Below are positions 25,391 to 50,249 of a stretch of DNA of 64,000 nt, one piece after another; position 1 is the first letter of the stretch, and the number at the start of each line of letters is the position of its first letter. Source of the DNA: Collinsella tanakaei (GTDB lineage: Bacteria; Actinomycetota; Coriobacteriia; Coriobacteriales; Coriobacteriaceae); contig NZ_JACJMB010000002.1 in assembly GCF_016902615.1 (NCBI RefSeq), forward strand, positions 1-64,000. The letters are read 5' to 3'. The notes under the pieces were generated by a model. The model made no database searches, was not told the origin of the DNA, and saw only the letters and a program-made list of their open reading frames with translations. The position numbers and the translations under genes are program-made.

Positions 25391-25456
25391 GGGCTTCGCG
25401 GCGCCTGCATACTGGAGATGCCGGCAAGCATTGCAGCCCCAATCGAAAGGCCGACC

Positions 25457-25579
25457 ATGAGCTTTCGCGACAACCTCCAGCACCTGCGTGCCACGCGCAA
25501 CATGACCCAAGAGCAGCTCGCCATGCTGCTCGGCGTATCCCGTCAATCGGTAACCAAATGGGGGACTGAGGGGGTATAA
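25457..25579 (+). pseudogene. XRE-family HTH gene, 5' fragment split by prophage
   Basis: Encodes 35 host residues: MSFRDNLQHLRATRNMTQEQ, then LAMLLGVSRQSVTKW, which is the first two and a half helices of an XRE helix-turn-helix. The frame then enters phage DNA and stops after GTEGV. The missing continuation (EAEKSYPEMDKLLKLCQIF) lies at 63149 in the same orientation. The gene is thus interrupted by integration; the fragment keeps its promoter and start, so a truncated peptide could be made. Confidence 0.9.
25554..25562. other. attL core of the prophage
   Basis: CCAAATGGG here corresponds to CCAACTGGG at 63141-63149. Host codons (ACC AAA TGG) run up to it on the left; phage sequence follows. 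Only TGGG is strictly common if the host codon was AAA, so the true overlap may be very short or tolerant of a mismatch. Confidence 0.75.
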
Positions 25580-25760: not shown

Positions 25761-26057
25761 ATGGCAACCGACTGGAACGCGCTCACCGCCGAAGAAGACC
25801 GCGCCTACTTCATGGCCGGGATCGTCGAGATCTCCCCGGAGAGCTTCACCCTCGAGGAGAAGCAAGAGATCCTGCGCGACATGGTCGCCGCCTCCGCGGC
25901 CATCGAGAACGCGATGCGAGACGACTTCGCCCGCTTCGACGAGGTCACCCAGACACGCCTCATCGACGCGCTCGCAGGGGCGGGCCCCAGGCACCGCGAC
26001 TGGTGGCACCGCATGCTCGTCGCCGGCCCCAGGCGCCGCGACACGATAACCATCTGA
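25761..26057 (+). CDS. Small prophage-end protein of unknown function
   Basis: A 98-residue acidic-to-basic soluble protein (MATDWNALTAEEDRAYFMAG, later EKQEILRDMVAASAAIENAM) with a probable helical core. It has a GGAGACC site upstream and is followed by a strong hairpin, so it appears as an independent rightward unit just inside attL, opposite to the lysis genes. No family was recognised. Its position next to att fits a lysogeny-expressed accessory gene. Confidence 0.55.
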   Translation: MATDWNALTAEEDRAYFMAGIVEISPESFTLEEKQEILRDMVAASAAIENAMRDDFARFDEVTQTRLIDALAGAGPRHRDWWHRMLVAGPRRRDTITI

Positions 26058-26219: not shown

Positions 26220-26333
26220 CTAACGGCCCGACCTGCCGGCCAGCCACGCCAGCGGCAGGAACGGCAGCGCGTACAGGCACAGTATCGCCGCCAGCACCGT
26301 GGCCACGCCCCAGCGGAGGTCGTCCCGCGTCAC
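26220..26333 (-). CDS. 37-residue membrane protein coupled to the endolysin
   Basis: Starts at a GTG overlapping the endolysin stop (GTGA) and encodes one hydrophobic helix (WGVATVLAAILCLYALPFLP) followed by a basic tail ending GRSGR. The four-base overlap and position at the end of the lysis genes suggest an accessory holin-like or release peptide. It is too short for family assignment. Confidence 0.5.
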   Translation of the reverse strand: MTRDDLRWGVATVLAAILCLYALPFLPLAWLAGRSGR

Positions 26334-27286
26334 AGCAGGATCTCGTTCACGCGCGCCTGCACGGCATCGTAGAGCGAGCCCAGGCGGCGCCTGCGCTCCT
26401 CGCCGTTGCCGTAGTCGCCGCGTATAACAGCCTGGGCGAGAGCCTCGATGTCGGCTCCGCCGGAGCCGCCCGAAGACCCGCCGCCCACGCCCAGGATCTC
26501 GTTGACCCTGGCCTGCACCGCGTCGTAGTTGGCGCCAAGCGCCGCTCGGCGCGCGTCCCCGTTGCCGTACTCGCCGCGGATCACCGCCTGCGCCAGCGCC
26601 TCGATGTCGGGAGCGGCGGGCGCGGGCGCAGCTGCAGCCGGTGCCGCAGAACCCGAGCCGCCTAGCAGGATGCGGTTCACCTCCGCCTGCACCTCGTCGT
26701 AGCGGCTCCCCAGCGCCGCGCGGCGGGCGTCGCCGTTCCCGAACTCGCCCGCGATCACGCGCGCCGCCAAGTCGGCGACGCTGCCGGAGGGAGCGCCCCC
26801 GGAAGGGCCCGGCGCGACAGCTGCCCCGCCGCCTCCCAAGATGCGCGCCTTGAGCGCCGCCCACTTGCCCGCGTCCACGTATGGCGCCGGGCACAGCTTC
26901 CCCGTCACGTCGTAGTGGCGGATCAGCCTCGTCACCCCGTGCGTAGCACGAAGGAACGCCCAGATCTCCGCCAGCGCCGCCACCTGCGAATCGGTGAAGT
27001 CCTCGCCGGCGCTCACGACCTCCACGGACACCGTGCGCTGGTTCTCGGCGAAGTCGCCCACCGCCCACGCGGTGTCCTCGAGGCGCACCGACTGCCGGAT
27101 CGACCCGTCCTTGTCCACGAACAGGTGCGCCGAGGCGCCCGTGCCGGCACGCGAGAAGTACACCAGGTTGTTGTGCGCGCTCGCAGAGGTCGCCGTGTAG
27201 TGCACCGCCATCCCGTCGATCGCGCGCCCGCCGCGCCCGGCGGTGTAGTTCGCGCCACTCGCCTGGACGAACTCGACTATGTTCAC
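26330..27286 (-). CDS. Phage endolysin: N-acetylmuramoyl-L-alanine amidase with three CW_7 repeats
   Basis: A 318-residue lysin. The N-terminal amidase_2 (PGRP-like) domain shows the zinc histidine in MAVHYTATSA and the second in RHYDVTGKLCPAPY. After residue 155 come three CW_7 (Cpl-7-type) wall-binding repeats separated by Gly/Ala/Pro linkers. Each has the core AxxVIxGxxGNGxxRRxxLG; for example DLAARVIAGEFGNGDARRAA. It cuts host peptidoglycan at lysis. It starts at a GTG overlapping the preceding small gene. Confidence 0.9.
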   Translation of the reverse strand: MNIVEFVQASGANYTAGRGGRAIDGMAVHYTATSASAHNNLVYFSRAGTGASAHLFVDKDGSIRQSVRLEDTAWAVGDFAENQRTVSVEVVSAGEDFTDSQVAALAEIWAFLRATHGVTRLIRHYDVTGKLCPAPYVDAGKWAALKARILGGGGAAVAPGPSGGAPSGSVADLAARVIAGEFGNGDARRAALGSRYDEVQAEVNRILLGGSGSAAPAAAAPAPAAPDIEALAQAVIRGEYGNGDARRAALGANYDAVQARVNEILGVGGGSSGGSGGADIEALAQAVIRGDYGNGEERRRRLGSLYDAVQARVNEILL

Positions 27287-27393
27287 TCGCCATCACCTTC
27301 CTCGGGGTCGAAGCCGTCGGGAGCCCCCTCGGGCCCCTGCTCGATCGCCGTCAGCTGCTCGGCCGTCGGCCCGAGCGTCGCCTCGTCACTCAT
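27283..27393 (-). CDS. 36-residue acidic peptide in the lysis operon
   Basis: A short leftward frame (MSDEATLGPTAEQLTAIEQG, ending EEGDGE) lies between the holin and endolysin genes, overlapping the holin end and sharing GTGA with the endolysin start. Strong acidity and tight coupling on both sides support translation. No function can be assigned. Confidence 0.45.
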   Translation of the reverse strand: MSDEATLGPTAEQLTAIEQGPEGAPDGFDPEEGDGE

Positions 27394-27610
27394 CGCGCTC
27401 ACCGCCCGCCGGCAGCGCCGCGCCCAGCTCCGCCATCACCGGCGACAGCACCGCCATCACCAGCGCCACCACCACGGCGCGCCACGTCGGCTCCAGCACC
27501 GCGCAGCCAACCAGCATGTCGACGTTGGCCACCACCACGCCCAGCACGCCCTGCACGATCGTCCGCGCCAAGCGCCACGGCCACTCGTTGCTCGTCAGGA
27601 ACTCCTCCAT
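27386..27610 (-). CDS. Phage holin
   Basis: A 74-residue protein with a short amphipathic start and two hydrophobic segments (VQGVLGVVVANVDMLVG and VVVALVMAVLSPVMAELG) and a charged tail GGERDE, typical of holins that permeabilise the membrane at the time of lysis. It is adjacent to the endolysin and directly follows a small membrane/coiled-coil gene. Confidence 0.7.
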   Translation of the reverse strand: MEEFLTSNEWPWRLARTIVQGVLGVVVANVDMLVGCAVLEPTWRAVVVALVMAVLSPVMAELGAALPAGGERDE

Positions 27611-27826
27611 CTAACGGCCCTCCTTCATGTTCTCGATCTCGGCCTTCACGACGGACACGTCCCGCTCCAGGGCGTAGGTGCGCTCCATCAGGCAGTTGTG
27701 CTTCTCCACCTGCCTCGTCAGGTTGTCGATCTTGACTTCCATCACCGCGCGGTTGCGCGAGTTGGACACCACCACGCCCACGAGGGTGAGCACCCCCGTC
27801 ACGAGCGCCGCGACCACCGACTCCAT
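27611..27826 (-). CDS. Small membrane/coiled-coil lysis protein (XhlA-like)
   Basis: A 71-residue product with an N-terminal hydrophobic helix (MESVVAALVTGVLTLVGVVV) then a coiled-coil-like tail (DNLTRQVEKHNCLMERTY, ALERDVSVVKAEIENM). The ATG at 27826 follows GGGGAGGAGG; longer starts lack a site. This form resembles hemolysin XhlA-type phage proteins that work with holins. Confidence 0.6.
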   Translation of the reverse strand: MESVVAALVTGVLTLVGVVVSNSRNRAVMEVKIDNLTRQVEKHNCLMERTYALERDVSVVKAEIENMKEGR

Positions 27827-27899
27827 GCGCGCCTCCTCCCCGGACGGGACGCCCCGCCCGCCACGAGTGTCCCGCGCGGTCACAAAACGCCTGTTCGGC

Positions 27900-27908
27900 T
27901 GGTAAAAT
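27900..27908 (+). promoter_or_regulatory. Extended -10 promoter of the low-GC moron
   Basis: TGGTAAAAT, a TGn-extended -10, lies about 95 bases upstream of the rightward gene at 28003, inside an otherwise leftward operon. It shares its surroundings (GGCTGGTAAAATGAGC versus CGCTGGTAGAATGAGC) with the promoter of the HEPN gene at 50214. Confidence 0.6.
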
Positions 27909-28002
27909 GAGCGAAGTGTTGCATTCTGTTTCTTCACAAAGAAGTTCACATGGAAGCGAGTTCTGTCGATAATCAGACCGAACGTGAAGTTGGGGGTGCG
28001 AG

Positions 28003-28577: not shown

Positions 28578-29957
28578 TCACTTCGCCGTCAGATACCCCG
28601 GAGCCCCCGGCGGCTCGTCGATCCGGCAGTAGTCCTCGTCCCTGCCACCGCTGTCGTATGTCGTCCCCGCGCCGCCCACCAGCGCCTCGCAGCCGTAGAA
28701 CATGCCGGACCCCTCGCACCCCGCGGGCAGCGACCAGTCCGCATCCACCCAGATAGTCTCCAGGTTCGAGCACCCCGAGAAGCAGTAGAACAGGTCCGTG
28801 AGCCCCTCGGTCGGAAACCCGGACAGGTCGAGCTCGGTGAGCCCGTCGCAGCTCGAGAACGCGTAGCGCATCTCCCGGACCTCCGGCAGGTTGGAGAGCC
28901 CGGCGACCTCGGCCATCTCCCCGTCGGTGTAGAACCAGTACGACAGGTTCGCGTACGTAAGCCCCGACAGGTCCTCGGAAAACGTCGCCTTCAGCACGTC
29001 CACCCCGGCATCGTCCCAGGCGCGCGACCCGATCGCCCGGTAGCGCGCCGTCGCGCACATCCGCGAGCTCAGCGCGACCTCGCGTCCCTCCTCGGGCTCG
29101 GGATCCAGCGTCAGCACGAGCTCGCCGTCGGCGTACAGGTGGCACGCCACCCATTCGCGCGCATCGGCCGCGGGATCCGTCAGGATGCCGTCCTCGCCGA
29201 ACCCCAGGTGCCCGTCGACGTCCTCGCCGTAGTCGGGCGAATAGCCCATCCCGCCCACCAGGCGGTTGCACCCGTAGAGGCCAAGGCTGCCCGTCTGCTC
29301 TCCGGCAGGCTCCCATCTGGCAGCGTACACGCTCTCCAGCGAAGGGCAGCTCGAGAACACCTGATCGAAGCTCAGCGCGCCCTCGAGCGCCTCGAACCCC
29401 CGCACCTCGGTCATCTGCTGCAGGCTTTGGAACAGGTGCGACGCGTTGGTCAGGCCGCCGCCCGCGAAGTCCGAGTCTATCAGCGCCCGCAGCACCTCGC
29501 TGCGCCGCGTGCGCCAGGGGATGTCGCTCGAGGACGAGAAGCCCTCGGCCGGGATCTCCCATCCCTCCAGGATCACCGCCCCCTCCACGTCGGAGGACCG
29601 GCCGTCGCGGTAGTTCAGCTCGAGCGTCCCGTCGGAGAGCAGCAGCGCGCGCATCTTGACCCCCGTGTCCCATGTGAGCGCGCGGATCGCCGCAGGCATC
29701 TCGGCGGGGGTGTAGGTCGCCGTCGACCCGTTCTGCGTGCGGATCGCGTCGGCCAGGAGCTCGAACACGACCTCGGAGAGGATCCCGGTGCCCGCCTCGG
29801 GCGCGGCGGCGAGCCCCGCGCCCTCGCGCGTCCCGTCCATCTCCAGCACCCGCGAGCTCATCTCCAGCGGCATGTAGCGCGCCTGCTGCCCGTTCTGCTC
29901 GCGGATCGCGTTGGCGATCTCGGTCAGGAGCGCCTTGGTAACCGTTCCCACAGCCAT
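28578..29957 (-). CDS. Tail fibre/receptor-binding protein with BspA-like leucine-rich segment
   Basis: A 459-residue protein. Two copies of a fibre-attachment module open it (LLTEIANAIREQNGQQARYM near residue 10 and LLADAIRTQNGSTATYTPAE near 67). Towards the C-terminus come DUF285/BspA-type units (MRYAFSSCDGLTELDLSGFP, LFYCFSGCSNLETIWVDADW, MFYGCEALVGG). Such folds are displayed and bind surfaces. Position after the collagen-like gene fits a host-recognition tip. No chaperone was seen. Confidence 0.7.
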   Translation of the reverse strand: MAVGTVTKALLTEIANAIREQNGQQARYMPLEMSSRVLEMDGTREGAGLAAAPEAGTGILSEVVFELLADAIRTQNGSTATYTPAEMPAAIRALTWDTGVKMRALLLSDGTLELNYRDGRSSDVEGAVILEGWEIPAEGFSSSSDIPWRTRRSEVLRALIDSDFAGGGLTNASHLFQSLQQMTEVRGFEALEGALSFDQVFSSCPSLESVYAARWEPAGEQTGSLGLYGCNRLVGGMGYSPDYGEDVDGHLGFGEDGILTDPAADAREWVACHLYADGELVLTLDPEPEEGREVALSSRMCATARYRAIGSRAWDDAGVDVLKATFSEDLSGLTYANLSYWFYTDGEMAEVAGLSNLPEVREMRYAFSSCDGLTELDLSGFPTEGLTDLFYCFSGCSNLETIWVDADWSLPAGCEGSGMFYGCEALVGGAGTTYDSGGRDEDYCRIDEPPGAPGYLTAK

Positions 29958-31448
29958 CTAGAACTCCATCTCGGAAAGATCGTCCAGGTCCTCGATCGCC
30001 TGGTCCACATAGGCCTTCGTCGCGTACGCGGAAAGGTCGGGCGCGCTGCCCGGCGCCCCGTCCGCGCCCGGCTCTCCCTGCGGCCCGGGCTCCCCGGCCT
30101 CGCCCTTGAGGCCCGAGAAGGCGAACGCGAACGTCCGCGCCCCCGGCGTACCGCCCATCGTCACGGTGACCGCGGGCGTCCCCGTGGACCCGTCCACCGT
30201 GGCGGTCGCCCCCACGATGTCGGCATCGGCCCCGTCGGCCCCGTCGGCCCCGTTCTCGCCGTCTGCGCCGTCGGCACCCGCCGGCCCGCGCAGCGCCTCC
30301 AGCTGCTCCGCCGTGAAGTCCGAGTACGAGAACGCTTCGCCGGGGTCGCCCTTGTCGCCCTTCGGCCCCGCGAGGTCGGCCGAGCTCGTCCCGCTTGCGC
30401 TCGTCACGGTGAGCACCGTGCCGTCCCACGAGTGCGTGCAGCTCGTGCCGTGCCTGATCACGCGCGCCTCCGCGTGCTGGTGGTCCCAGATCTGGATCTT
30501 GATGCCCTCATCCTCGGGATAGCTGACGAAGAACACCTGCGGGCTGATGCCGTCCGCACCGTCGGCCCCGTCCGCCCCGGCCGGCCCGCGCAGCGCCTCC
30601 AGCTGCTCGGGCGTGAAGTCGGAGTACTCGAACGCGTCGCCCGTATCGCCCTTCTCGCCGCGCAGCGCCGCCACCTGCTCCTCGGTGAGGTCGTCGAACG
30701 TGAGCGCGTCGCCCTTCTGCCCGTGCGCGAGCGTCGCGGTCGTGGTGCCGGAAGCGTCCGTCACGGTGATGAGCGCGCCGGCCTCGGTCTGCTCCACCTT
30801 CGCCGTCGGGCTCACGCCGTCCTGCCCGTCGGCGCCCGCGGCGCCCGGCTCGCCGTCGAAGTCGCCGCGCTCCGCCGCCGCGAGCAGGTCGTCCTTCGCC
30901 TCGGTCGCCGCCGTGGCCGCAGCCGTAGCGGCGGCGATCGCGGCGGACGCCGCCTGCTGCGCCTTCTCGACGGCATCGTCGATCAGCTCGTCGGCCTCCT
31001 CGAACTTCCGGATCGCCTCCAGAAACATCGAGTACCCGTCGCCGCCCGAGCCCTCGACGCCGCCGAGCGCCGCCGCCACGCGCACGGCGAACGGCGCGGA
31101 CGAGATCGCCTCGTCACCGCCGCAGACCACCACCTGCGCGTCGACCGTGCCCTCCGCGCACGCCATCGAGGCGGGCCAGAACACACGGAACCGGCCGTGC
31201 TCGGCGTCCACCGCCTCGAACGGCTCGCAACCGCGCGCCCGCGCCTCGCGGTGGCGCCACAGCAGGTATGCCGTCGCGCCCGTAAGGTCGACCGCCTCGC
31301 CGCCGCGCACCACGGAAAGGTCCATGCCGCGCCCCCGCGCGTCTGCGGGCGAGGCGAGAAGCGGCATCCGCAGCGGCGCGTCGGCGCCGTCCCACGTCAC
31401 CTCGTACAGCCCGTCGCCCGCAAGCGCAAACGTCTCCTCGTCAGCCAT
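29958..31448 (-). CDS. Baseplate/fibre protein with BppU-like N-terminus and collagen-like repeats
   Basis: A 496-residue structural protein. The N-terminal 120 residues (ending in [16 protein letters not shown]) match the pattern of BppU/upper-baseplate domains. Glycine-rich collagen-like runs ([19 protein letters not shown] and similar) alternate with repeated blocks [20 protein letters not shown], present at least twice. It ends DDLSEMEF, nearly the same octapeptide as the adjacent tail-tip gene. Likely a trimeric fibre shaft. Confidence 0.72.
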
Positions 31449-31449
31449 G

Positions 31450-32643
31450 TCAGAACTCCATCTCGCTCAGATCCTCCAGGGAGGAGACCGCCCCCGCGGC
31501 GGCGGCTGCGGCCTCGCCGGCGGCGGAAGCCGCCTCCTCGACCGTGGCCACGCGCGCCGCCACGTCGGCGGACGCCGACCACGACGTGCGCTCCACGGTC
31601 CCCAGCGCAAGCCGGCGCACGATCCCGCCCGCGCCGAGCTCCCGCACGCGCCGCACGCATCGCGCCGTGAACCTCCACGGAGGCACCCGCGCGTCGTCGC
31701 ACACCGCGACGTCGTCTCCCAGCCCCACGAAGCCGCAGCCGCAGACCCGAGCCGCCTCGGCCTCGTAGGCCACGCGGGGACGGCTCAGCCGCGCAAGCTC
31801 CGCCTCGGTGAGCGCCTTCAGCTCGGAGGCGTCCTCGCACTCGGCGAACACCACGCATCCGAACCGGTGCGCCCTGCCGCCGGAACCGTCGGGCCGCCCC
31901 CACACCAGGCGCGCCTCGTCGCTGCCCACCCAGTTCACGCCGTTGTTCACGGCGCCGAAGGTCAGCCGCCTGGCGTAGCCGCCGGTATGCTCGCCGCTCT
32001 CGTCCAGGACCGGCAGCCCGCGCCCAAATCCGTAGAGCGCCGTGAACACCTCGTCCTCCAGCACCGTGCGCGTGCAGGCCATGAGCCCCTTGCCGCGCGT
32101 GAGCCGCGCCCCGCGCCAGCCCCCGCGCCGCGCGGGCAGCGACACCGTGCGCCCGGCGACGCGCCCGCCCTCCACGGCTATCGAGCACTCGAGCTCGCCG
32201 CCCCAGACCTCCTCGACGCGCCTCAGCGCGGCGAGCGCGTTCACGTGGTAGAGCAGGCAGCCGTGCCGCGCATCGCCCGCGCCCACGTAGCCCGCGGTCC
32301 AGCGCGTGTGGGCCAGCACGGCGGCGAGCGCCTCGGCGGCGGTCTTCGCGGACAGGCGCTCCTCCTCGATGAAGTCGCCCAGAAGCTCGCTTATGGAGGA
32401 CTCGGCGTACACATGCGCAGCCCCCGTGAGCGGCTCGTCGGTGCGCACCACCACGTGCTCGCGCCAGGCGCCGTCCTCGGGGTCTCGCCACAGCAGGCGG
32501 GACCCCTTCTCGGGCGCCGCCGCGCAGTCGAACTCGATCGTGTCCTCGCCGCCCAGCTCCTCGGTGTGCGTGAGCGAGGCCACGGCAGACAGGATCCCCA
32601 GCGGGCTGTCGAAGCGGTCGAAGAGGTAGATCGCCGGAACCAT
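31450..32643 (-). CDS. Tail-tip protein (prophage tail/Tal-like)
   Basis: A 397-residue protein of the phage minor structural/tail-associated family that follows Dit in siphoviruses. It opens [20 protein letters not shown] and contains DTIEFDCAA, typical of the baseplate-hub-like N-terminal domain. The C-terminus is an alanine-rich helix ending [11 protein letters not shown]. It is too short to include a separate lytic domain. It should bridge the distal tail ring to the fibre. Confidence 0.7.
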
Positions 32644-33360
32644 CTACAGCCACCTCTCCGTCCACGCCACCTCGTGCGCCGAGCACCCGGAGAACGTCAG
32701 GACGCGCGCGCCGGGCGAGAGCGAGAAGAACGTGCTCTCCACGCCCACGTCGGCGGAGGCGTCCTCGCCGTCCACCGTCACGGACTCGGCGGCGAAGTCC
32801 ATCACCACCTCGTCCCCGGCGGAGAGGCCCCGCTCGACCAGCACGAAGCGCCCGCCGCCGTCCGTCACCTTCACGGCGGAGCCGGCCGCGGCCGTCAGCG
32901 TCATCACGGGCAGCGTCGGCCAGGTGCCCAGCACCTCGAGCTCCGTCCCCGCGCAGGAGCGCCCCGCGCCGTACGCCACCGGGTCGTAGCACGTGAAATC
33001 CACGGCGCACGAGCCGCCCTCGAAAAGGTTGTCCCAGTCCGAGACGCCCGTCACCACCGCGTCGCGCCACGTGAGCGCGTCCTCGCCGGGCAGGGCGAGG
33101 TCCCCGCCGCCGGGCGCGCAGAGCCATGCGCGCAGCAGAGCCCGCAGGCGCGACAGCTCGCCCGGCGTCATCTGCGACCCCGCGTCCAGGTGCAGCCGCA
33201 GCCGCACCTCGCGCGGCGGCAGCTCGCAGCCCAGAAGCAGCGCGCCGGGCCTGCCCGGCACCGCGAGCGCGCGCGGCTCCAGGGCGTGCGCCGCCGGCTC
33301 CTCAAGCTCCGCCTGGACATACGGGGAGAAGTCGCGCCCCGCGTAGGAGAACCCGCTCAC
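32644..33360 (-). CDS. Distal tail protein (Dit-like)
   Basis: A 238-residue protein with Dit features: an N-terminal FSYAGRDFSPYV beta segment, REVRLRLHLDAGS, WRDAVVTGVSDWDNLFEGGS and FTCYDPVAYG. It starts at GTG overlapping the preceding stop (GTGA). Dit forms the ring at the tube end, so a long tail is implied, yet no tube or tape-measure gene precedes it. Confidence 0.72.
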   Translation of the reverse strand: MSGFSYAGRDFSPYVQAELEEPAAHALEPRALAVPGRPGALLLGCELPPREVRLRLHLDAGSQMTPGELSRLRALLRAWLCAPGGGDLALPGEDALTWRDAVVTGVSDWDNLFEGGSCAVDFTCYDPVAYGAGRSCAGTELEVLGTWPTLPVMTLTAAAGSAVKVTDGGGRFVLVERGLSAGDEVVMDFAAESVTVDGEDASADVGVESTFFSLSPGARVLTFSGCSAHEVAWTERWL

Positions 33361-33536
33361 AGCCGCCCCCGGGCGCGCCCGTACGCGGTGGCGCGCCGCT
33401 GCTGCTCGCGCCCCATCCGGTCGGTCTCGGATGCGCTGCGCCGGCTCTCGTCCCGCGCATCGCGGTGAGCCGGTCCCTTCTTGGAATCGTCGCGGACTCG
33501 CTGCCCGCGCACGCGCCCATGTCCGTTACCCAACAT
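33357..33536 (-). CDS. 59-residue basic protein at the site of the missing tail genes
   Basis: A short frame MLGNGHGRVRGQRVRDDSKK, then GPAHRDARDESRRSASETDR and MGREQQRRATAYGRARGRL. It overlaps the tail-terminator gene at its start and the Dit gene at its stop. Strongly basic and charged. It occupies exactly the place where major tail protein, chaperones and tape measure normally lie, so it may be a small linker gene or a remnant of a deleted one. Confidence 0.5.
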   Translation of the reverse strand: MLGNGHGRVRGQRVRDDSKKGPAHRDARDESRRSASETDRMGREQQRRATAYGRARGRL

Positions 33537-33924
33537 GCCTCACCACCGTGCAGATCAAGGTGAACCCCCACAGCCACCGCCCGGACCCGTCGCGCCCGCG
33601 CGGCCCGGCGCCGCCGGAGTCGGCCGAGGCGATCCTTACCCCGTCGACGTCGATCGGCCACGCCGCCCCGCGCAGCGCCCGCTCGGCATCCAGGCAAACG
33701 GCCTCCGCGGCCCCGGCCTCCTCGCGGCACGTGAGCACATCGACGTCCACGCGCCCGCGCTCGCTGCCGTCAGCCAGCCGCGCTTCCCGCGCGAAGGGCC
33801 CCTGGGTCACCACGATCGGCTCGGCGCAAAACCCAGCCGAGGGCGGCGCGCAGAACACGCCCGCGAAGCCCAGCGCACAGAGCATCGACGCCACCGCGCC
33901 CGCCACATCGCCGCAAGGAGCCAT
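33526..33924 (-). CDS. Probable tail-terminator/tail-completion protein
   Basis: A 132-residue protein from ATG 33924 that overlaps the stop of the preceding connector gene. The C-terminal RDGSGRWLWGFTLICTVVRH is the pattern at the end of many small siphoviral tail-terminator proteins. The call rests on size, ending and position among head-tail joining genes. Confidence 0.5.
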   Translation of the reverse strand: MAPCGDVAGAVASMLCALGFAGVFCAPPSAGFCAEPIVVTQGPFAREARLADGSERGRVDVDVLTCREEAGAAEAVCLDAERALRGAAWPIDVDGVRIASADSGGAGPRGRDGSGRWLWGFTLICTVVRHVG

Positions 33925-34253
33925 CAGCCCACCTCCAGTTCCCAGTGGTGCACGTGCCCGCGCACCACGCAGCAGCGCCGGCACCTGAGTACGTGCACGC
34001 TCGGTCCCGCGCCCACCAGCACGCGCGACCCCACGGGAACCTCGAAGGCGCCCTCCGAGCTCACTGCGTCAACGAAGATCCGTCCCGCGCCGCCGTCCGC
34101 GCTGCGGTGGGCGTCGTCCACGGCGGACTCCGCACGCTCGAAGCGCACGTGCCTCACCAGCACGGACGGCCCGTACGTCCCGTCGCCCGCGGCCGGCCGC
34201 ACCAGCATGTCGTCGGGCAGAAGCCTTCTCGGTATCGGCCTCAGAAAGCGCAT
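33924..34253 (-). CDS. Probable head-closure/minor capsid protein
   Basis: A 109-residue protein (MRFLRPIPRRLLPDDMLVRP, ending GHVHHWELEVG) placed after the adaptor gene, in the position and size range of gp16/HCP-type head-closure proteins. It abuts the preceding stop and overlaps the next start. Confidence 0.5.
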   Translation of the reverse strand: MRFLRPIPRRLLPDDMLVRPAAGDGTYGPSVLVRHVRFERAESAVDDAHRSADGGAGRIFVDAVSSEGAFEVPVGSRVLVGAGPSVHVLRCRRCCVVRGHVHHWELEVG

Positions 34254-34637
34254 CTACCTCACCCCGCTCCAGCAAAGCCCTGTTCCCGCCAGCTCCGCGA
34301 GCGCCGCCTCCCGCGCCACCTCGGCGCCGGTCGTCCCGTCGTCGCGGTAGTTCGTCACGGAGAAGGACCCTATCGAGAAGCCGCCCACGCGCCCCTCGCC
34401 GTACTCGGCGAAGGCGTCCGCGGCCGCGCACACGGCGCGCCGCCAGGCGTCTGCCTGATCGTCGTCCCAACCGCCCTGCACCTCGCGCGCACCGGTGAGC
34501 GACCCGACCATGCGCACGGCGGCGGGCATCACCTCGGAGAAGTCCGCCGCCGGCAGCGCCCCGCCGTACCCGTCCTGGTAGAACTCATAGGAGACGGGCG
34601 CGGGGCCGCAGCCCGCCGCGCCCGTCGCCCCGTCCAT
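34254..34637 (-). CDS. Probable head-tail adaptor protein
   Basis: A 127-residue protein starting at an ATG fused to the capsid stop (TGATG). It has helical stretches (DDQADAWRRAVCAAADAFAE) and ends with AREAALAELAGTGLCWSG. Location immediately after the capsid gene and size fit the gp15/gp6-type adaptor below the portal. Confidence 0.5.
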   Translation of the reverse strand: MDGATGAAGCGPAPVSYEFYQDGYGGALPAADFSEVMPAAVRMVGSLTGAREVQGGWDDDQADAWRRAVCAAADAFAEYGEGRVGGFSIGSFSVTNYRDDGTTGAEVAREAALAELAGTGLCWSGVR

Positions 34638-35653
34638 CAGGCCAGCGGCGCGCAGGAGACGTGCACGCCGTCCAGCTTGTTGTCCAGCAGCTCCACGATG
34701 CCGTACTTGCGGTACTTCATCATGTAGCTGTCCAGGTTCTCCAGCTCGTCCGGGCTGAACACGCGGCTCGCCACGTGCTTGTCGAACTTGATCACCGCCG
34801 AGCGCTCCACCACCATGAAGTTGATGGGCGCGCCCGCGCCCACGAGCTCGTAGTACGTGGAGAGGCCGCTCGAGCTCGGGCTCGCCACCTTGGTGTAGGT
34901 GCCGGAGCTCTCGGTGAAGTAGGTCTTGCCCGAGACCACGGAGGTGTCCTCCGTGAGCTGGTAGGTCCCCTCGGCGCGCGAGTACCCGAACTGGTCCTCC
35001 TCGCCGGAGTTGAGCGCGATCGCGCTGTAGAAGCGCGTCTGCGGCACCTCCACGACGCGGCTGAAGCGCTCGAGCACGCGGTTGCTGCGCGCGGGGTTCG
35101 CGAGCGAGAAGTCGTCCAGCACGCCCTTGAGCGTCGGCGTGATGAAGAGGATGCGCGAGCCGGTCGTCACCTCCGCCTCGTCCATCGCGTTCGTCGCGGC
35201 GCGCAGGCTCGCGAGCACGTCCTCGGCGTCGGCGTCGGCGAAGTCCTCGACGGCGGGCGTCACGCCCTCGTGCCCCGCGATCTCGGAGAAGGTGAAGGCG
35301 TCCGCCTCCGGGGCGACCTGCGTGCGCTGCAGCTCGGAGCCCGCCGCCACGAAGCAGTCGAGGACGCCCGCCTCCTCCACGTCCATCACGTCCGCGAGCA
35401 GCTTGATGCCGCGGTCGTAGTTGAACGTCTTGGTCTCGAACTCGTAGGTGATCGAGCCGGTCTTGTAGCCCACGTTGCGCGTGTAGTCGCCGAGCCCCGT
35501 CACCTCGATTTTCGGAATCATGATCTCCTTGGCGTTGCGACCGGCGCGCGCCATGCGGCGCGGCGAGTTCAGGCACGTCGAGCACGCCGCACGCTTGTAG
35601 ACCTCGTCGAGAAGCGCCGTGTAGTTCTTGGTGTAGGCAATCGAATTGGCCAT
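34637..35653 (-). CDS. Major capsid protein
   Basis: A 338-residue HK97-fold-sized protein (MANSIAYTKNYTALLDEVYK, IEVTGLGDYTRNVGYKTGSI, VERSAVIKFDKHVASRVFSP). It directly follows a scaffold-like gene. No protease gene was found, so maturation may not need cleavage or use an unrecognised enzyme. Confidence 0.78.
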   Translation of the reverse strand: MANSIAYTKNYTALLDEVYKRAACSTCLNSPRRMARAGRNAKEIMIPKIEVTGLGDYTRNVGYKTGSITYEFETKTFNYDRGIKLLADVMDVEEAGVLDCFVAAGSELQRTQVAPEADAFTFSEIAGHEGVTPAVEDFADADAEDVLASLRAATNAMDEAEVTTGSRILFITPTLKGVLDDFSLANPARSNRVLERFSRVVEVPQTRFYSAIALNSGEEDQFGYSRAEGTYQLTEDTSVVSGKTYFTESSGTYTKVASPSSSGLSTYYELVGAGAPINFMVVERSAVIKFDKHVASRVFSPDELENLDSYMMKYRKYGIVELLDNKLDGVHVSCAPLA

Positions 35654-35656: not shown

Positions 35657-36193
35657 TTACTCCTCGTCTCCCTCGATGCCGGCGATCTTCCGCCAGCGCT
35701 TCATCTGCGCGCCCTCGTCAGACGCGGCGCCTGCGTTGGGCAGCCCCGTCGTGCCAGCCTGCGCGGGCGTAGACGCACCCGTGCCGAACAGCCAAGGTTC
35801 GGCGATCTTGAGCTTCTCGATGTCGTTGTCGTGGTCTGGCAGGAGCGCGCGGGCCGCCTTGACGTTGCGCGCGCCCGCGAGCTGCAGCTCGAAGCCCACG
35901 CGCTCCTCGTCGCCCCTCCGGCGCAGCTCGTCCATCTCCTTGCGGAGCGCCTCGGCGCCCTCGGCGGTCTTGGCCGCCTCCGCGATCTCGCCCTCGAGCT
36001 CCGCGATGCGCGCGTCGCGCTCCGCGAGCGCCGCCTCGTAGTTCTTCTGCGCTTGCATGGCCACGTCACCGTTGCCGGTCGTATTGGCACCTTGGAACCC
36101 AGCCGTCACCGCCGCCTGCGTCTGGTCGACCTGCGCCTGCGGCTCACCCGCGACCTGCGCCTGCGCGACCGCGCCATCGTTCCCGTCACCCAT
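35657..36193 (-). CDS. Capsid scaffolding protein
   Basis: A 178-residue coiled-coil protein (YEAALAERDARIAELEGEIA, EAAKTAEGAEALRKEMDELR) with Ala/Gln-rich ends, typical of GP20-type phage scaffolds, three bases upstream of the capsid gene. The ATG at 36193 was chosen because the upstream frame extension runs into the structured leader. This is the first structural gene left of the capsule cassette. Confidence 0.75.
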   Translation of the reverse strand: MGDGNDGAVAQAQVAGEPQAQVDQTQAAVTAGFQGANTTGNGDVAMQAQKNYEAALAERDARIAELEGEIAEAAKTAEGAEALRKEMDELRRRGDEERVGFELQLAGARNVKAARALLPDHDNDIEKLKIAEPWLFGTGASTPAQAGTTGLPNAGAASDEGAQMKRWRKIAGIEGDEE

Positions 36194-36286
36194 GAAAAGG
36201 CCCGCCTTTCTCCTCGGGCGGGCAAAGAAATAGCCCGCACCCATCAGATGGGTACAGGCTAAAAACGCGTCACAAAACGAATTATA
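36194..36286 (-). promoter_or_regulatory. Promoter and structured leader of the scaffold-capsid genes
   Basis: On the leftward strand, TATAAT at 36286-36281 gives a -10, without a clear -35. The transcript would begin with ACCCAT/ATGGGT (36240s), then GCGGGC TATTTCTTT GCCCGC, then GCCCGCC/GGCGGGC enclosing GAGGAGAAA. The last two stems share GCCCGC and cannot form together. The final stem holds the purine-rich ribosome-site candidates, and CTTTTC follows just before the ATG, so it might act as terminator or as start-site lock. Confidence 0.55.
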
Positions 36287-36302
36287 CGGGGATTTGTCCT
36301 GC

Positions 36303-36494
36303 CTAATCCTTTATTAAGCCTGTTCCTTTGCAGGTAGGGCAATCTCCTGTCTCGTTGCAAACGTAGCAGGCGGATGTTCCAGTGCCATCGGCTCGAACAT
36401 ACGCAGGCGAAGGGTGCGCGTTGATTCTAATGCGACCCGTTCCATTACAGAGAGAACACTTTCCGGTACCGCGGCAATCTGGGCATTCTTTCAT
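36303..36494 (-). CDS. Small DnaJ-type zinc-finger protein
   Basis: A 63-residue protein with four CxxC pairs: CPDCRGTGKCSLCNGTGRI and CYVCNETGDCPTCKGTGLI. The CxxCxGxG units match the DnaJ/Hsp40 zinc centre without J-domain. Start at 36494 follows AAAGGAAATG. It is the last gene after wecB, less GC-rich than phage genes, and closes the capsule cassette. A role as a folding or regulatory accessory is only a guess. Confidence 0.65.
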   Translation of the reverse strand: MKECPDCRGTGKCSLCNGTGRIRINAHPSPAYVRADGTGTSACYVCNETGDCPTCKGTGLIKD

Positions 36495-36583
36495 GATGCA
36501 TTTCCTTTCGATATTAACAGTCCCACCAGACAAGGATGCTATGTCCGGTATGTATCCGTTAGGGGACTTCGTTCCCGATTTGG

Positions 36584-37687
36584 CTAATCTAGCTTTGATG
36601 CCAAGATATTGGCAATCCTATCGCTCGCATACCCATCGCCATACGGATTGCTCGCATGGGACATGGATTCGTACTCTGCCGGGTCATCCAGCAGCCGGGA
36701 GAACTCGCGGTAGATGGCGTCTTCCTCCGTGCCGACGAGACGGAGCGTGCCGGCCTGAACGCCTTCGGGGCGCTCGGTGGTGTCGCGCATGACGAGCACG
36801 GGCTTGCCGAGGGAGGGCGCCTCCTCCTGGATGCCGCCGGAGTCGGTGAGGATGAGGTGGGAGCGCGCCATGAAGTTGTGGAAGTCCACGACCTCCAACG
36901 GGTCGATGATGCGCAGGCGGTCGAAGCCGTCGAGCTCCTCGTGCGCTGCTTCCCGAACCTGGGGATTCATGTGTATGGGGTAGATGGCCTTGGTGTCCGG
37001 GCGCTCCTCCATGACGCGGCGGATGGCGCGGAACATGCGGTGCATGGGCTCGCCCAGGTTCTCGCGGCGGTGGGCCGTGATGAGGATGAGCCGTGAATCA
37101 GAAGCCCAGTCGAGCTCGGGATGCCGATAATCATCTTGCACCGTGGTGCGCAGGGCGTCGATGCCGGTGTTGCCTGTGACGAAGATCCTCCCGTCCGGCT
37201 TCGCCTCGTCAAGCAGGTTCTGGCGCGAGGTCTCCGTGGGTGCGAAATACCAATGCGATACGACGTCCACCGCCTGGCGGTTGAACTCCTCCGGCCAGGG
37301 GCTGTAGAGGTTGCGGGTGCGCAGCCCTGCCTCCACATGCCCTACCGGAATCTGGAGATAGAATGCAGCCAACGCCGCCGCAAAGGACGTGGTGGTGTCA
37401 CCGTGGACGAGGACGCAGTCTGGCTCCTCGTATTCCACAATCTTCCTGAGGCCCGAGAGCACGTCGCAGGTGATGTCGAAGAGCGTCTGTCCCGGCTTCA
37501 TGACGCGTAGATCGTGATCGGGCTTGACGCCGAAGACCCTGAGCACCTGGTCGAGCATCTCGCGATGCTGGCCGGTGACGCAGACGACGGTATCGAACTC
37601 GTCAGGGCGACTCTTGAACTCCAGAACGAGCGGGCACATCTTGATGGCCTCCGGGCGAGTTCCGAAGACAAGCATGATCCTTTTCAT
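36584..37687 (-). CDS. wecB: UDP-N-acetylglucosamine 2-epimerase
   Basis: A 367-residue non-hydrolysing epimerase that makes UDP-ManNAc from UDP-GlcNAc. Family features: MLVFGTRPEAIKMCPLV at the start, VTGQHREMLDQVL, HVEAGLRT, ITAHRRENLG, and TDSGGIQEEAPSLGKPVLVM. ATG 37687 has GGAGGG upstream. With the dehydrogenase at 41485 it would supply UDP-ManNAc uronic acid for the polymer. Confidence 0.92.
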   Translation of the reverse strand: MKRIMLVFGTRPEAIKMCPLVLEFKSRPDEFDTVVCVTGQHREMLDQVLRVFGVKPDHDLRVMKPGQTLFDITCDVLSGLRKIVEYEEPDCVLVHGDTTTSFAAALAAFYLQIPVGHVEAGLRTRNLYSPWPEEFNRQAVDVVSHWYFAPTETSRQNLLDEAKPDGRIFVTGNTGIDALRTTVQDDYRHPELDWASDSRLILITAHRRENLGEPMHRMFRAIRRVMEERPDTKAIYPIHMNPQVREAAHEELDGFDRLRIIDPLEVVDFHNFMARSHLILTDSGGIQEEAPSLGKPVLVMRDTTERPEGVQAGTLRLVGTEEDAIYREFSRLLDDPAEYESMSHASNPYGDGYASDRIANILASKLD

Positions 37688-37710
37688 TTACCCTCCATCT
37701 AGTCTTTCAA

Positions 37711-39147
37711 TTAGCGATTACGGAGTAGGCGAGTCCCCAGCAAGGAGACGAAGCGCTTTACCTGGTCGTAATTGAGCAGGTAGAAAACGAGGACGGAGAT
37801 AGCCGTCAATGCGAGAGAAGACGCGTAGTATGCCGAGGCGACAAAAGCGGCAGCCAGGGCTATCTCGGCAATCAGAAGACGCCTCCCGCCAACGTGGATA
37901 TAGCGATTGAGGTAGACCTCGGCGACGACGCTTCTGAAAGCAATCGCCGACACTATCGACATTGCTGCAAAGATCGCATCAGACAGCACAAGCACCGAAA
38001 GCAGGCAAAGCACAAGCGAGACTCCGAGAGTCCCCACGTTAATCCAAAGCAGCGCATTCTCCTTGCGCAACGACTTCAGGTAGGTGTTCACCAGGAGCTG
38101 CACCTTGCAATCGAAATAGCAGATGGGGAGCAATATCGCTAGGTAAATTAGGCTGTCTGCGTACTGCGGGAGCCACCAGGACAGAAGCTCGCGTCCAGGG
38201 TAGAACGCGAGGTATATGAGAGGGAGCACGGTTGCAAGCCCCGACCGAATGGCTGCGTAGGCATTTACCTGAGAACTCTCACTCATTCTCCTGATGACAG
38301 GAAAGATCACCATGGACACCTGAGCCATGAATGACAAGAGAAAGTTGATTAGAGATACCGAAAAGGAGATTTTTCCGAACGTCTCAATGCCCCATCGCCA
38401 GTCGATGAGCATTCTGCATGACCCAATGACAAGGGTGCCCGCATAATAGGCTGCGGTGACCTTGATGCCCGCAACCAGATCATCACGAATATCCCTGAGT
38501 CCCTGTCGCAATGACCCGAAGGGGCATTTCAGCGCCCGTGCGGCATACAAATAGCCGATAAGCGAGGATATCCCTTGGCAGGCAAGATAGCAGAGAACAT
38601 AAGAGACGAATCCCTCCGGATTGAGCGCCGTTAAAACAATTAGAGCGACGACCCAGAATGCACCCGACACCATACTTGCCGTCGAATAGATATTGGGCAG
38701 GTTGGCGGCGCGAAATACATAGAACAAAAAAGCTGATGGATTGACAATAAGACCGTCGGCAACGACGAGAAGGAAGATTATTTGCCTGCTATCCCCTGAA
38801 AATGGAACGCAGGTGGCGAGAAGGACAGACGCGCCGACAAGCAACTGGAAGCCGGCCACCAACGCGAACTGTGTCTTGATTCTTGACCAGTCGATTTCCG
38901 ACACCGTTGTCCCACCGAGCCTGAGGAATACGCCATCGTGCACGCCGAGTAAGGCGAGACCCACATATCCCGAATAGAGAACAAACAGCTGCCAGTACGC
39001 GTAGTCCTCAATCCCAAGCAACCTCGGAACAATAAGCGACATAAGTACGCTTGATGCAAGGGAAACTCCTTGGGCCGCGATCGCATAGGCGAGGTTGGAG
39101 GCAAGCCCTCCACGTTCTTCGAGTGAAATTGGAGCAGTCTTTTTCAT
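37711..39147 (-). CDS. wzx: Polysaccharide repeat-unit flippase (Wzx-type)
   Basis: A 478-residue membrane protein with about 12-14 hydrophobic segments and the MATE/MOP-like start (LASNLAYAIAAQGVSLASSV, LLGIEDYAYWQLFVLYSGYVG). It would move lipid-linked repeat units across the membrane. Its ATG overlaps the stop of the polymerase gene. GC content falls to roughly half here, unlike phage genes, indicating acquisition with the cassette. Confidence 0.82.
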   Translation of the reverse strand: MKKTAPISLEERGGLASNLAYAIAAQGVSLASSVLMSLIVPRLLGIEDYAYWQLFVLYSGYVGLALLGVHDGVFLRLGGTTVSEIDWSRIKTQFALVAGFQLLVGASVLLATCVPFSGDSRQIIFLLVVADGLIVNPSAFLFYVFRAANLPNIYSTASMVSGAFWVVALIVLTALNPEGFVSYVLCYLACQGISSLIGYLYAARALKCPFGSLRQGLRDIRDDLVAGIKVTAAYYAGTLVIGSCRMLIDWRWGIETFGKISFSVSLINFLLSFMAQVSMVIFPVIRRMSESSQVNAYAAIRSGLATVLPLIYLAFYPGRELLSWWLPQYADSLIYLAILLPICYFDCKVQLLVNTYLKSLRKENALLWINVGTLGVSLVLCLLSVLVLSDAIFAAMSIVSAIAFRSVVAEVYLNRYIHVGGRRLLIAEIALAAAFVASAYYASSLALTAISVLVFYLLNYDQVKRFVSLLGTRLLRNR

Positions 39148-40409
39148 GCGCGCCCCCTAGGAACAGACATGCTCAGAGCTTCGGAGGCTTCCGGCGATGC
39201 AACGAATGACAGCGCAAGGATAAGAAGGCTGTTCAGCGTATTCTCAAACACAGAAGTGAGCATAAGGGAGAGAACCAGACCACAAAGCACAGCACGGTAT
39301 GCCCTATTCGAGCACTTGTCAGCGGTGCTACAAGCGGAAACAACAGCGCTTGCAAACAGTATGATCCCGAATACACCAGCCGTGAAGCCAATCTGCAGCC
39401 AAAGATTGTGAGCGCTGCCGTAATCGTGCACGTAATAAAACTGCCATAGATCAGTTGCCACATATTGCTGATAACCGTAACCGATTATCGGGGACTCAGC
39501 TATTGAGCCTATTACCGAGTCCCAGATGTAAGTACGCCCCGTAAACGTCGACCCCTGGCTATAGGTGAGGTCTTTCCCCAATATAGTCGCAATTTGGTCG
39601 TAGGGGAGGTAATCTGCAATACGGACGAAAACTATGAGAACAAGAAAGACGGTTGTGATAAGAAGTGCGTTCCTCGATGTCGCAAAACGCTGCACCGGAC
39701 TACTCCACGAGAACAAGATGACAACGATCTCCGCCACCAAGGCGACCATCGAGGTCGCACTTGCCAGAGCCAGTACGAGCACGATTGAAACCGCGCTTGC
39801 CCCCATGAAGGCAGCGCCAAGCCGGCCCTTGGCAAGATAGTCGAACGCCGCAGCGAAGAAGACCAGGAGAAAGCACCAGCGACTTTGAAGGCTTCCACCT
39901 TCAAGAATCCAGCGTGCATCACCATCGAGACGATATATCCCGCCGAGAAGCAACGCCCGCGTCGCTAGCTCAAGAACGACCAGCACGCCGATGACCAATA
40001 GGGTTGCAACTAAAAACGGGAGAACCTCGTCCTTCCTCAACACGGCAATAAGCAGCGCGGGCGCGATGAACATAGCAGTGTTAACAACCAGGTCGTATCT
40101 GAGCCCATTCCCTAAGAGTGTTGCAACAGCGGCCGCCGTGAGGTAAAGGGACAAAAGGACAAGGAAGGGCTCCAGCCTTCCGTTTCTTAACACAAACCTG
40201 TATGCAAGCATTAGACAGGAAAGCAATAACCATCCTGCAAAGACGGTCTTAAGCGGAGCGATTGCAGGCCAATCATTGATTATTGTCGGACGGAAGAACG
40301 GCATGAGCAAGAACATGTAGAGCAAAACCTGCCTCGTCAATCGCTCGGCCTTTCTCGCTTGCGAATATCTTTTCGATGAAATGTGGGAAGAAACCGTAGA
40401 TGCACTCAT
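39144..40409 (-). CDS. wzy: O-antigen/capsule polymerase-like membrane protein (Wzy-type)
   Basis: A 421-residue protein with ten or more hydrophobic segments and a large outer loop near residues 290-320 (TFTGRTYIWDSVIGSIAESP, IGYGYQQYVATD, GSAHNLWLQIGF), the signature of the O-antigen ligase/polymerase (Wzy_C) domain. It would polymerise repeat units outside the membrane. It overlaps both neighbours by four bases. Low GC like wzx. Confidence 0.8.
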   Translation of the reverse strand: MSASTVSSHISSKRYSQARKAERLTRQVLLYMFLLMPFFRPTIINDWPAIAPLKTVFAGWLLLSCLMLAYRFVLRNGRLEPFLVLLSLYLTAAAVATLLGNGLRYDLVVNTAMFIAPALLIAVLRKDEVLPFLVATLLVIGVLVVLELATRALLLGGIYRLDGDARWILEGGSLQSRWCFLLVFFAAAFDYLAKGRLGAAFMGASAVSIVLVLALASATSMVALVAEIVVILFSWSSPVQRFATSRNALLITTVFLVLIVFVRIADYLPYDQIATILGKDLTYSQGSTFTGRTYIWDSVIGSIAESPIIGYGYQQYVATDLWQFYYVHDYGSAHNLWLQIGFTAGVFGIILFASAVVSACSTADKCSNRAYRAVLCGLVLSLMLTSVFENTLNSLLILALSFVASPEASEALSMSVPRGRA

Positions 40410-41476
40410 CGGTCAAGCACCCCAGAATTCGCAAGCCTTTCCACGAGCACAGTCGAAAGCGATTCGACATAATGCTCCCGTGAGTAGTACGTTTCAAAGA
40501 GGTGTTTGAACTCGGCAAGAACCTCGCTCGCCTCTATAGGTTGCGAGCAAAAGTCGACTACAGCATTGACGTCCGGTTCCGCGTCTACAGCGAGTGCGTA
40601 TTTCATTCCCTTGGTTGCTTCTCTGAAGCTGGTGAGGCAACGACTAAATATTGGAATCACTCCTGCGGATAGGTAGGACGAGAGTTTGGTAGGTGTCGCC
40701 ACCCTGTTGACCGCGCAGTCTTCGCGGATGACGAACCCGAAAGAGGCGCCACTCAGTTCCATCGACACTTGGTCGGGGGGGACGCTGCCCACCCAGTAGT
40801 TCTGCACACCAGCCCGCCTCAGCTTCTCCTCGGCCCCACGTTGGTCGAAGCAATATACTTTGAAGAGCGCATCGGGCATGCGCTCTTCAATTCTCTTGAA
40901 CAGGCGTGCGGTTTCGTCGAAGCACTGCCAAGCTGCCAATGAGCCCATGTACACGAAAACCTTGTTGGCATACTTTTCGGGAGCTAGGACGGATTCGGCA
41001 CATAGCTCCGAGTTGAAACAAGGCATGATGCCGTAACGGCCCTTGAAATCAAGGCCGTACTTCGCTTCATAATGCCTCTTCATCTCCGAGGAGACAAAGA
41101 AAACGAACTTGGCTTTCTTTAGGACATAGGATTCCATCAGCGACAGGGCGAGGCGACGCGAGCGACTATGCCTGCGCATGAAGCTCTCTTCCGGCACAAT
41201 CCCTTGGCACCAAACCACAACATTTTTAAATCCTTGTTTTATAAAGCTCAGGGCATCCATGCATGAAGCAACAACGATGAGTGCATCTTTCCTTAATGGG
41301 GAAAAAGCGCTTCGTGTAGAAAACTCAACCGTCTGACACATCCACCCGGAGCGCTCCAAAGCCCCCTTAATAACGTTCATGTAGTTATCTGTCACTTCGG
41401 AGTTCTGGGAAAGAACGACATACGCTTCGCGCGGGAGGTCGAGGGAACGTACTTTGTTTGAATTCGGTCGAGCCAT
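40406..41476 (-). CDS. Glycosyltransferase (GT-B-like)
   Basis: A 356-residue protein with C-terminal GT4-like motifs (NKVFVYMGSLAAWQCFDETA, FGFVIREDCAVNRVATPTKL, SSYLSAGVIPIF). It likely adds one sugar of the repeat unit at the cytoplasmic membrane face. The ATG at 41476 follows the dehydrogenase stop by 8 bases. GC is low, as for wzx/wzy. Donor and acceptor unknown. Confidence 0.72.
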   Translation of the reverse strand: MARPNSNKVRSLDLPREAYVVLSQNSEVTDNYMNVIKGALERSGWMCQTVEFSTRSAFSPLRKDALIVVASCMDALSFIKQGFKNVVVWCQGIVPEESFMRRHSRSRRLALSLMESYVLKKAKFVFFVSSEMKRHYEAKYGLDFKGRYGIMPCFNSELCAESVLAPEKYANKVFVYMGSLAAWQCFDETARLFKRIEERMPDALFKVYCFDQRGAEEKLRRAGVQNYWVGSVPPDQVSMELSGASFGFVIREDCAVNRVATPTKLSSYLSAGVIPIFSRCLTSFREATKGMKYALAVDAEPDVNAVVDFCSQPIEASEVLAEFKHLFETYYSREHYVESLSTVLVERLANSGVLDR

Positions 41477-41484
41477 TAGTCTCC

Positions 41485-42702: not shown

Positions 42703-42738
42703 TGTTCTACCTTTCCGTGTTTGCTGATCCAGCATCCG

Positions 42739-48451: not shown

Positions 48452-48623
48452 GCCGCCGCTCCTCATAGCGCAACAGCACGCCCGCGGCGCGCCGACCCTT
48501 CCGTTGTCGCTACCGAGCGCATGAGCGCCCCCCCCCCGCGTTTTCAGCGGGGAAATCCCGTATGTCTTCTGCCATCTCTTCCAAAACACCCGACCCGTGT
48601 GCCCATAACCTGACATGCACGCG
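48452..48623 (-). promoter_or_regulatory. Capsule leader with a ten-G tract and hairpin
   Basis: Between the NusG-like gene and the initiating transferase lies a 172-base leader. Leftward-strand CCCCGC TGAAAAC GCGGGG forms a hairpin whose 3' arm runs into ten consecutive G (C10 at 48528-48537). Specialised NusG proteins of LoaP type act through leader hairpins, so this is a candidate target; tract-length change could alter the hairpin or, if translation starts at 48616, the frame. Confidence 0.55.
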
Positions 48624-49235: not shown

Positions 49236-49274
49236 GTTGCCGACCCTCCCTCCATCGGCCCTCCCGCGCCAAGC

Positions 49275-49426: not shown

Positions 49427-49471
49427 AGCGGAAAACTGCCATTTACCAGCGCAAACACAGCCGCATGGCCA

Positions 49472-50086: not shown

Positions 50087-50213
50087 CAAAACCCCGCCTT
50101 CCCGCCCGCGCGTCACCCGCCCCGACCTGCGCGGGCGCAAGCAGGCAGGGGCTCACGCGCCAACGTTAAAAGGCGGTCGCAAACCGCCCGCCATACCCGG
50201 GTTTCCAACGCGC

Positions 50214-50222: not shown

Positions 50223-50249
50223 GAGCCGGTAGCGGAACGGAGGCTCCAG

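Follow-up and report, generated by a model that had tools for sequence, protein, structure and literature searches.

The question raised by this locus is what kind of particle, if any, can be encoded by a phage-like element whose neck genes lead directly into the genes of a siphoviral tail tip. The window, that is, the whole stretch of 64,000 nucleotides from Collinsella tanakaei analysed here, had been described in an earlier note as carrying neck genes that run into a Dit-like gene with only a 59-codon frame between them. This order was borne out on the minus strand, where the operon reads scaffold, capsid, adaptor, stopper, p152, p59, Dit, Tal, fibre, p459, a holin-like pair and endolysin. 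The only frame between p152 and Dit is the 59-codon frame at 33357-33536 (minus strand), a space into which tube and tape-measure genes cannot fit. The structural cassette and the lysis end comprise the following features.

35657-36193, minus strand: scaffold (phrog_31118, 1.3e-50; PF06810 below the cut-off; start inferred from the alignment)
34637-35653, minus strand: major capsid protein (phrog_422, 3.7e-69)
34254-34640, minus strand: head-tail adaptor (phrog_541, 1.4e-16)
33924-34253, minus strand: stopper (phrog_793; PF10665 at 24.1 bits against a cut-off of 25)
33526-33984, minus strand: p152, predicted tail terminator of 152 aa (AF2 model, fold matches)
33357-33536, minus strand: p59, small basic protein in the tube and tape-measure place (conserved QRRA..YGRARG end)
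32644-33360, minus strand: Dit, distal tail protein (PF22768, 3.1e-23)
31450-32643, minus strand: short Tal, 397 aa (PF06605, 1.9e-11)
29958-31448, minus strand: fibre (phrog_32779, tail fibre families; weak BppU_N and collagen matches)
28578-29957, minus strand: p459, likely a second receptor-binding protein (phrog_29123; weak LRR_5/DUF285 matches)
27611-27949, minus strand: p112, XhlA-like lysis accessory protein (weak match)
27386-27610, minus strand: holin-like protein (two hydrophobic stretches; its homologue adjoins the lysin in PMBT5)
26330-27286, minus strand: endolysin (PF01510, PF08230; phrog_7698)
25761-26057, plus strand: distal-end protein of 98 aa (five other loci hold relatives)

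A siphoviral-type terminator, Dit and Tal are all present in the element. The stopper gene overlaps p152 in the window, and no tail completion gene lies ahead of the terminator; in the accessible part of one source, a table of five siphoviruses places tail completion genes ahead of those for terminator and tube (PMC11099176). The further claim that no tube or tape-measure candidate exists elsewhere in the element withstood the profile searches that the earlier note had proposed as its test, and no such gene was found in the window: a PHROGs scan of 20 window proteins (23.1-42.0 kb) returned no tube or tape-measure family, and neither emerged when the element's other main ORFs were scanned with Pfam. 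Across the window's whole genome, there was no match to PF10145, to the tape measure of the G038 type or to the tube protein of the G038 type, and such genome-wide negatives are weak because these proteins diverge fast. The reported absence of a capsid protease also stood, with neither a head maturation protease nor an HNH endonuclease among the ORFs scanned with Pfam (small ORFs being covered incompletely). The scaffold gene occupies the protease place, as in Eggerthella phage PMBT5, for which no protease is named among the 31 features listed. When p459 was considered as a tape measure or needle, Pfam gave weak LRR_5/DUF285 matches instead.

The sole candidate for a hidden tube protein was p152, and this possibility was rejected, as its AlphaFold model (pLDDT 86.9, from a 39-sequence alignment) resembles terminators, with match lists that leave other folds possible. 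Foldseek placed lambda gpU, T5 p142, SaPI1 neck and GTA chains among the first matches, the best E value being 2.8e-5 to 2gjv (function unknown), and VIA-align gave Z scores of 12-13 against T5 p142, mycobacteriophage connector chains and lambda gpU over 118-128 residues at an rmsd of ~3. Relatives of p152 matched PF12691 and PF11367 below the cut-off. From the model, we take p152 to be the tail terminator.

The comparison with complete phages, also suggested by the earlier note, showed that complete relatives hold the tube module at the gap position. In the complete prophages of G038 and G028, the capsid, TerL, portal, adaptor, stopper, Dit and Tal are homologous to those of the window and follow the same order, but extra genes lie between stopper and Dit. 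In G038, a PF11114 gene takes the place of a tail completion gene and is accompanied by a terminator (PF12691), a tube-like protein that carries a Big_2 domain and is called tube from its position, chaperone-like genes and a tape measure (PF10145). Between the capsid stop and the start of Dit lie 5615 bp in PMBT5, whose capsid shares 36% identity with that of the window, and 1190-1361 bp in 65 family loci; Tal measures 389-428 aa in 63 family loci and 850-937 aa in the complete phages. The complete siphophage relatives (PMBT5, G038, G028) carry ~4-5 kb more than the window family and have no p59. The losses all concern the tube, and the neck and tip are retained; a siphovirus encodes a tube and a tape measure, and the window element encodes neither. 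The capsid itself has an insertion of ~45 residues (residues ~228-272, gene 34637-35653) that is present in the nearest relatives and missing from G017, G049 and PMBT5.

To place the gap in its wider distribution, a capsid scan of an 84,980-species collection yielded 77 loci and one of IMG/VR yielded 36, and 115 targets (these 113 plus two own copies) were mapped with profile HMMs grown from the window genes. The 77 loci were found mainly in Olsenella, Collinsella, other Atopobiaceae and Eggerthellaceae, along with a single Bifidobacterium and distant Clostridia. A complete set of capsid, p152 and Dit occurred in 71 of the 115 loci, representing 60 distinct DNAs, as some loci are one contig in two collections. 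The distance from terminator stop to Dit start was 130-250 bp (median, 165) in all 71, none of which has room for a tube and tape measure. Tape-measure matches occurred in just 12 other loci, all with distant capsids and none with a Dit match. Among 30 capsid loci with more than 4 kb downstream and no Dit, 17 are distant (12 of them with tape-measure matches) and 13 are remnants in Coriobacteriia or Bifidobacterium. The capsid tree, for which 65 of 107 sequences were kept and 3 added (those dropped had neither label or were partial or duplicate capsids), contained one split between 56 tube-less and 12 tape-measure-bearing members (support, 0.80), and a single ancestral loss fits this one split. 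All 13 cassette genes gave median dN/dS values of 0.34-0.65, calculated by NG86 on GC-rich, partly saturated pairs and therefore rough at such GC content and divergence. With the constant gap, these dN/dS values and the split in the tree, the suggestion that the element is defective finds no support. The missing tube and tape-measure genes are a family trait, not local decay, and the original observation gains weight because of this. Tube-less elements are a widespread family in gut Coriobacteriia, one that is undescribed in the open-access literature searched (most subscription papers and bioRxiv lying beyond its scope).

The small frame in the gap is also a conserved gene. A p59 HMM match (E 1e-5) was found in 63 of the 71 loci holding capsid, p152 and Dit, and a p59-like end could be read by eye in the remaining eight (shown for six distinct DNAs), L086, L088 and L089 being clear cases and L109, L132 and L138 less so. 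Its C-terminal end (E.QRRA..YGRARG) is strikingly conserved, which may be due in part to the ribosome site of the overlapping Dit gene, and the median dN/dS over the whole gene is 0.60 (520 pairs). A weak structural model (pLDDT 66) predicts a disordered basic start and a helix at residues 26-56. The idea that p59 is the remnant end of a tape measure was rejected, with hhalign against 12 tape-measure C-termini returning a probability of 0.2%, and a search of 50,697 phage records with one 49-aa relative as the query found no match at E up to 5.

The integrated element spans ~25563-63140 (~37.6 kb). Its ends were defined by an empty site in the relative G008, which has no capsid match and in which window positions 25440-25562 (100%) are contiguous with the sequence from 63141 on (97%). 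A 9-bp core is common to both element ends, and a host HTH gene is split by the element (25.45-25.56 kb and 63.14 kb onwards). Exact repeats of at least 13 bp, tried as att sites of the window, gave one unconvincing match. Integration is site-specific, and recent movement is indicated because a close relative has the empty site. In G050, a direct repeat of 47 bp, lying where a tRNA-Glu gene ends, marks the limits of a homologous element of ~31 kb. A view of the 26-36 kb cassette as an element without terminase and portal proved wrong, as both were found at 55.9-52.2 kb, far upstream of the cassette and on the other side of ~15 kb of cargo. The ends, early genes and packaging genes are as follows.

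25554-25562, no strand: left attachment core CCAAATGGG (empty site in the relative G008, L227)
63141-63149, no strand: right attachment core CCAACTGGG, one mismatch (empty-site comparison)
61429-63117, plus strand: integrase (PF00589, 7.5e-21)
60675-61472, plus strand: repressor-like HTH protein (PF01381)
60223-60657, minus strand: HTH protein, excisionase- or activator-like (PF12728, weak, 23 bits)
57310-60219, minus strand: primase-helicase (PF22763, PF06048, PF18662 Cch HTH)
56628-57116, minus strand: 162-aa protein of no family (conserved in mapped elements)
55920-56342, minus strand: small terminase (TerS) candidate (HTH domains just upstream of TerL; conserved)
54650-55927, minus strand: large terminase, TerL (PF04466, 2.4e-39)
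52193-53782, minus strand: portal (PF05133; 64% to the G049 portal)

Eleven elements were mapped from the integrase-like gene to the structural genes, and in all eleven, the cargo follows TerL and portal and is itself followed by the scaffold-capsid block. Full-coverage Dit and Tal were present in ten, G017 having lost most of Dit, Tal and fibre. Spans from integrase to lysin are 31-37 kb. G056, G050 and G101 have early genes of another type and no matched lysis gene, and the lysis gene of G100 was likewise unmatched among the mapped elements. Broken elements are common, and TerL was not found in 4 of 19 element-bearing genomes (G030, G102, G103, G105); the window genome belongs to the same genus as G030 and G016. 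A second copy of the element in the window's genome (L008/L009, contig C16; capsid at 11279-12304, 75%) carries Gabija and an LlaJI-type restriction gene, with a stop in Tal and a split fibre.

The gap between portal and scaffold is a fixed cargo site, filled mostly by defence genes in relatives and by a polysaccharide locus in the window.

50250-51254, plus strand: AbiD-like gene (PF07751; PADLOC AbiD, 3.5e-20)
49472-50140, minus strand: resolvase (PF00239)
36584-49235, minus strand: polysaccharide locus (multiple genes)
36269-36276, minus strand: TTTGTGAC, the right edge of the cargo site, where homology between loci begins

Homology sharply begins at TTTGTGAC, just before the scaffold, in 16 aligned loci (two of which start inside the stretch), and the genes to its left are unrelated between loci. 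The site was recognised at window positions 36269-53782, in L008, L041, L043, L045, L047 and L049, and also in L051, L078, L087 and L115. Of 20 larger cargo proteins picked by size from 12 loci, 18 matched PADLOC defence models at E up to 1e-10 and two had no match; the matches include type II and III restriction-modification, Gabija GajA/GajB, AbiD and PDC-S06, and the pVip match of one protein (1e-12) is partial. The polysaccharide locus of the window encodes a sugar transferase, glycosyltransferases and heparinase-like, pyruvyl transferase, UDP-glucose dehydrogenase-like and Wzy-like proteins, together with a UDP-GlcNAc 2-epimerase homologue. Both the window and G017 carry an AbiD gene, a resolvase and polysaccharide genes; the cargo of G017 (L046/L215) has the same AbiD/resolvase start as window positions 49472-51254 (94-95%) and another polysaccharide set. 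In the hotspots of P2, P4 and PICIs, defence genes likewise vary at a constant position flanked by conserved phage genes, whereas the cargo here sits between portal and scaffold of a tube-less Coriobacteriia element. A conserved, GC-rich and apparently noncoding stretch follows the portal (51394-51843) and lies at the left cargo edge in several elements, and a 76-aa cysteine-rich protein with a weak DnaJ CXXCXGXG match is encoded just before the cargo edge (36303-36533).

The best reading, which we hold to be modestly probable, is that of a phage, or an element resembling one, in which the neck would be joined to a siphoviral tip without a tube, so that the tail would be very short. A short-tailed particle of this kind was one of several options in the earlier note and is the best supported of them; the defective option found no support. 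The family would descend from a long-tailed siphophage, and an ancestor would have lost the whole tube module, which comprised the tail completion and tube proteins, the chaperones, the tape measure and the extended end of Tal. The element would build its own head and package DNA with its own terminase, the neck would be closed by adaptor, stopper and terminator, and the Dit ring would sit immediately beneath the terminator ring, tube rings being absent. The short Tal and two fibre-type proteins would form the tip, p59 might act through its basic start and weakly modelled helix as a plug or spacer replacing the tape measure, and particles would be released by holin and endolysin. Direct seating of Dit is plausible because Dit and tube proteins have a common ring fold; to our knowledge, there is no example of terminator-Dit docking. 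Its own Tal, fibres and lysis genes, together with the spans of 31-37 kb, argue for self-sufficiency, short of proof. This short-tailed reading is weakened by an early module (integrase, repressor, HTH, Cch-like primase) like that of satellites, by the many broken copies and by the 4 of 19 element-bearing genomes in which TerL was not found. The fuller version, in which the tube module was dropped whole, the terminator carries Dit, p59 replaces the tape measure and exchangeable anti-phage or polysaccharide cargo rides at a fixed place, is put forward tentatively, at slightly less than an even chance.

The main rival, a helper-dependent satellite, is rather unlikely in our estimate. It would make its own head, neck, tip and fibres, and a siphophage, either resident or infecting, would supply tube and tape measure; the satellite's Dit, Tal and fibres would then cap the borrowed tube and determine the host range. 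The satellite-like early genes and the retained terminator, which could meet a helper tube, are consistent with this arrangement, but tape measures are normally matched to the Dit and Tal encoded alongside them, making a borrowed tube with a foreign tip awkward, and the element is phage-sized with its own lysis genes. Searches with PF10145 and the G038 tape measure covered 21 genomes, of which 19 bear the element and two are complete-phage controls; both controls matched. PF10145 tape measures were found in 3 of the 19 (G045, G102, G104) and G038-type ones in 2 of the 19 (G102, G106), and these four genomes may hold resident helpers; the other 15, including the window's, had no tape-measure match by either query, which argues against a resident helper, although a helper may also infect from outside or carry a tape measure of another family. 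A full-length G038-type tube protein was found in none of the 19, the matches in G017, G104 and G108 spanning only the C-terminal half, the site of the Ig-like domain. Precedent exists in cf-PICIs and Streptomyces satellites, which, in the accessible part of the source, encode their own heads and depend on helpers for tails (PMC10690885). The window element is like cf-PICIs in being integrated, in its satellite-like early genes and in encoding its own capsid, portal, connectors and terminases; cf-PICIs as described there (PMC10690885) have no tail genes of their own, whereas the window element encodes Dit, Tal and fibres as well as lysis genes and has a scaffold in the protease place. The head maturation protease and HNH endonuclease of cf-PICIs were not seen among the Pfam-scanned ORFs of the window element. 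The Streptomyces satellites MulchRoom and MiniFlayer, the latter podovirus-like, have their own terminases, portal, scaffold, capsid and adaptor, and the accessible part of the source describes no Dit/Tal cassette in them, a comparison by description rather than sequence (PMC10690885). The Mulch/Flayer satellites are also described there (PMC10690885) as being without a primase, unlike the window element with its primase-helicase at 57310-60219.

A particle that does not serve self-transfer, with a domesticated head and tip that hosts would maintain, perhaps to interfere with infecting phages or to move host or defence DNA in a GTA-like manner, is improbable. The defence matches in 18 of the 20 chosen cargo proteins and the many genomes with several copies or stubs would suit such a role, but integrase, att sites, TerS/TerL candidates, fibres and lysis genes are conserved together, and the empty site in a close relative points to recent movement. 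Chance deletion in a dead, decaying prophage is very improbable: broken copies do exist, including the C16 copy and G017, but the gap recurs identically in 60 distinct DNAs, and the intact frames and purifying selection also stand against it. An unrecognised tube and tape measure elsewhere in the element or host genome is barely credible, for although these proteins diverge fast and the genome-wide queries were PF10145 and the G038 proteins only, the core genes shared by the family leave no candidate, p152 appears to be the terminator, and the searches of the window's own genome were negative.

Phages are usually regarded as deeply divided by tail type. If the short-tailed reading is true, a natural siphoviral neck and tip without a tube would show a short tail arising from a long one, a new way of building a phage tail in a widespread, defence-carrying element of gut Coriobacteriia, and the family would put to the test a direct seating of Dit on the terminator. 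The element would also be a common vehicle in these bacteria for defence systems such as Gabija, restriction-modification, AbiD and others. Every part but p59 resembles known phage families. Partial loci were observed as well. In L053 (G056:C11), L055 (G016:C8) and L056 (G078:C91), the scaffold and the first 84-122 capsid codons are followed by another gene, which we take to be DUF262/GmrSD-like; in G078, the capsid stub reads in frame into this gene. Outside Coriobacteriia, a remnant on a Bifidobacterium pullorum subsp. gallinarum contig (L100) retains scaffold and capsid (74%), with p459 and lysin-type matches directly after the capsid.
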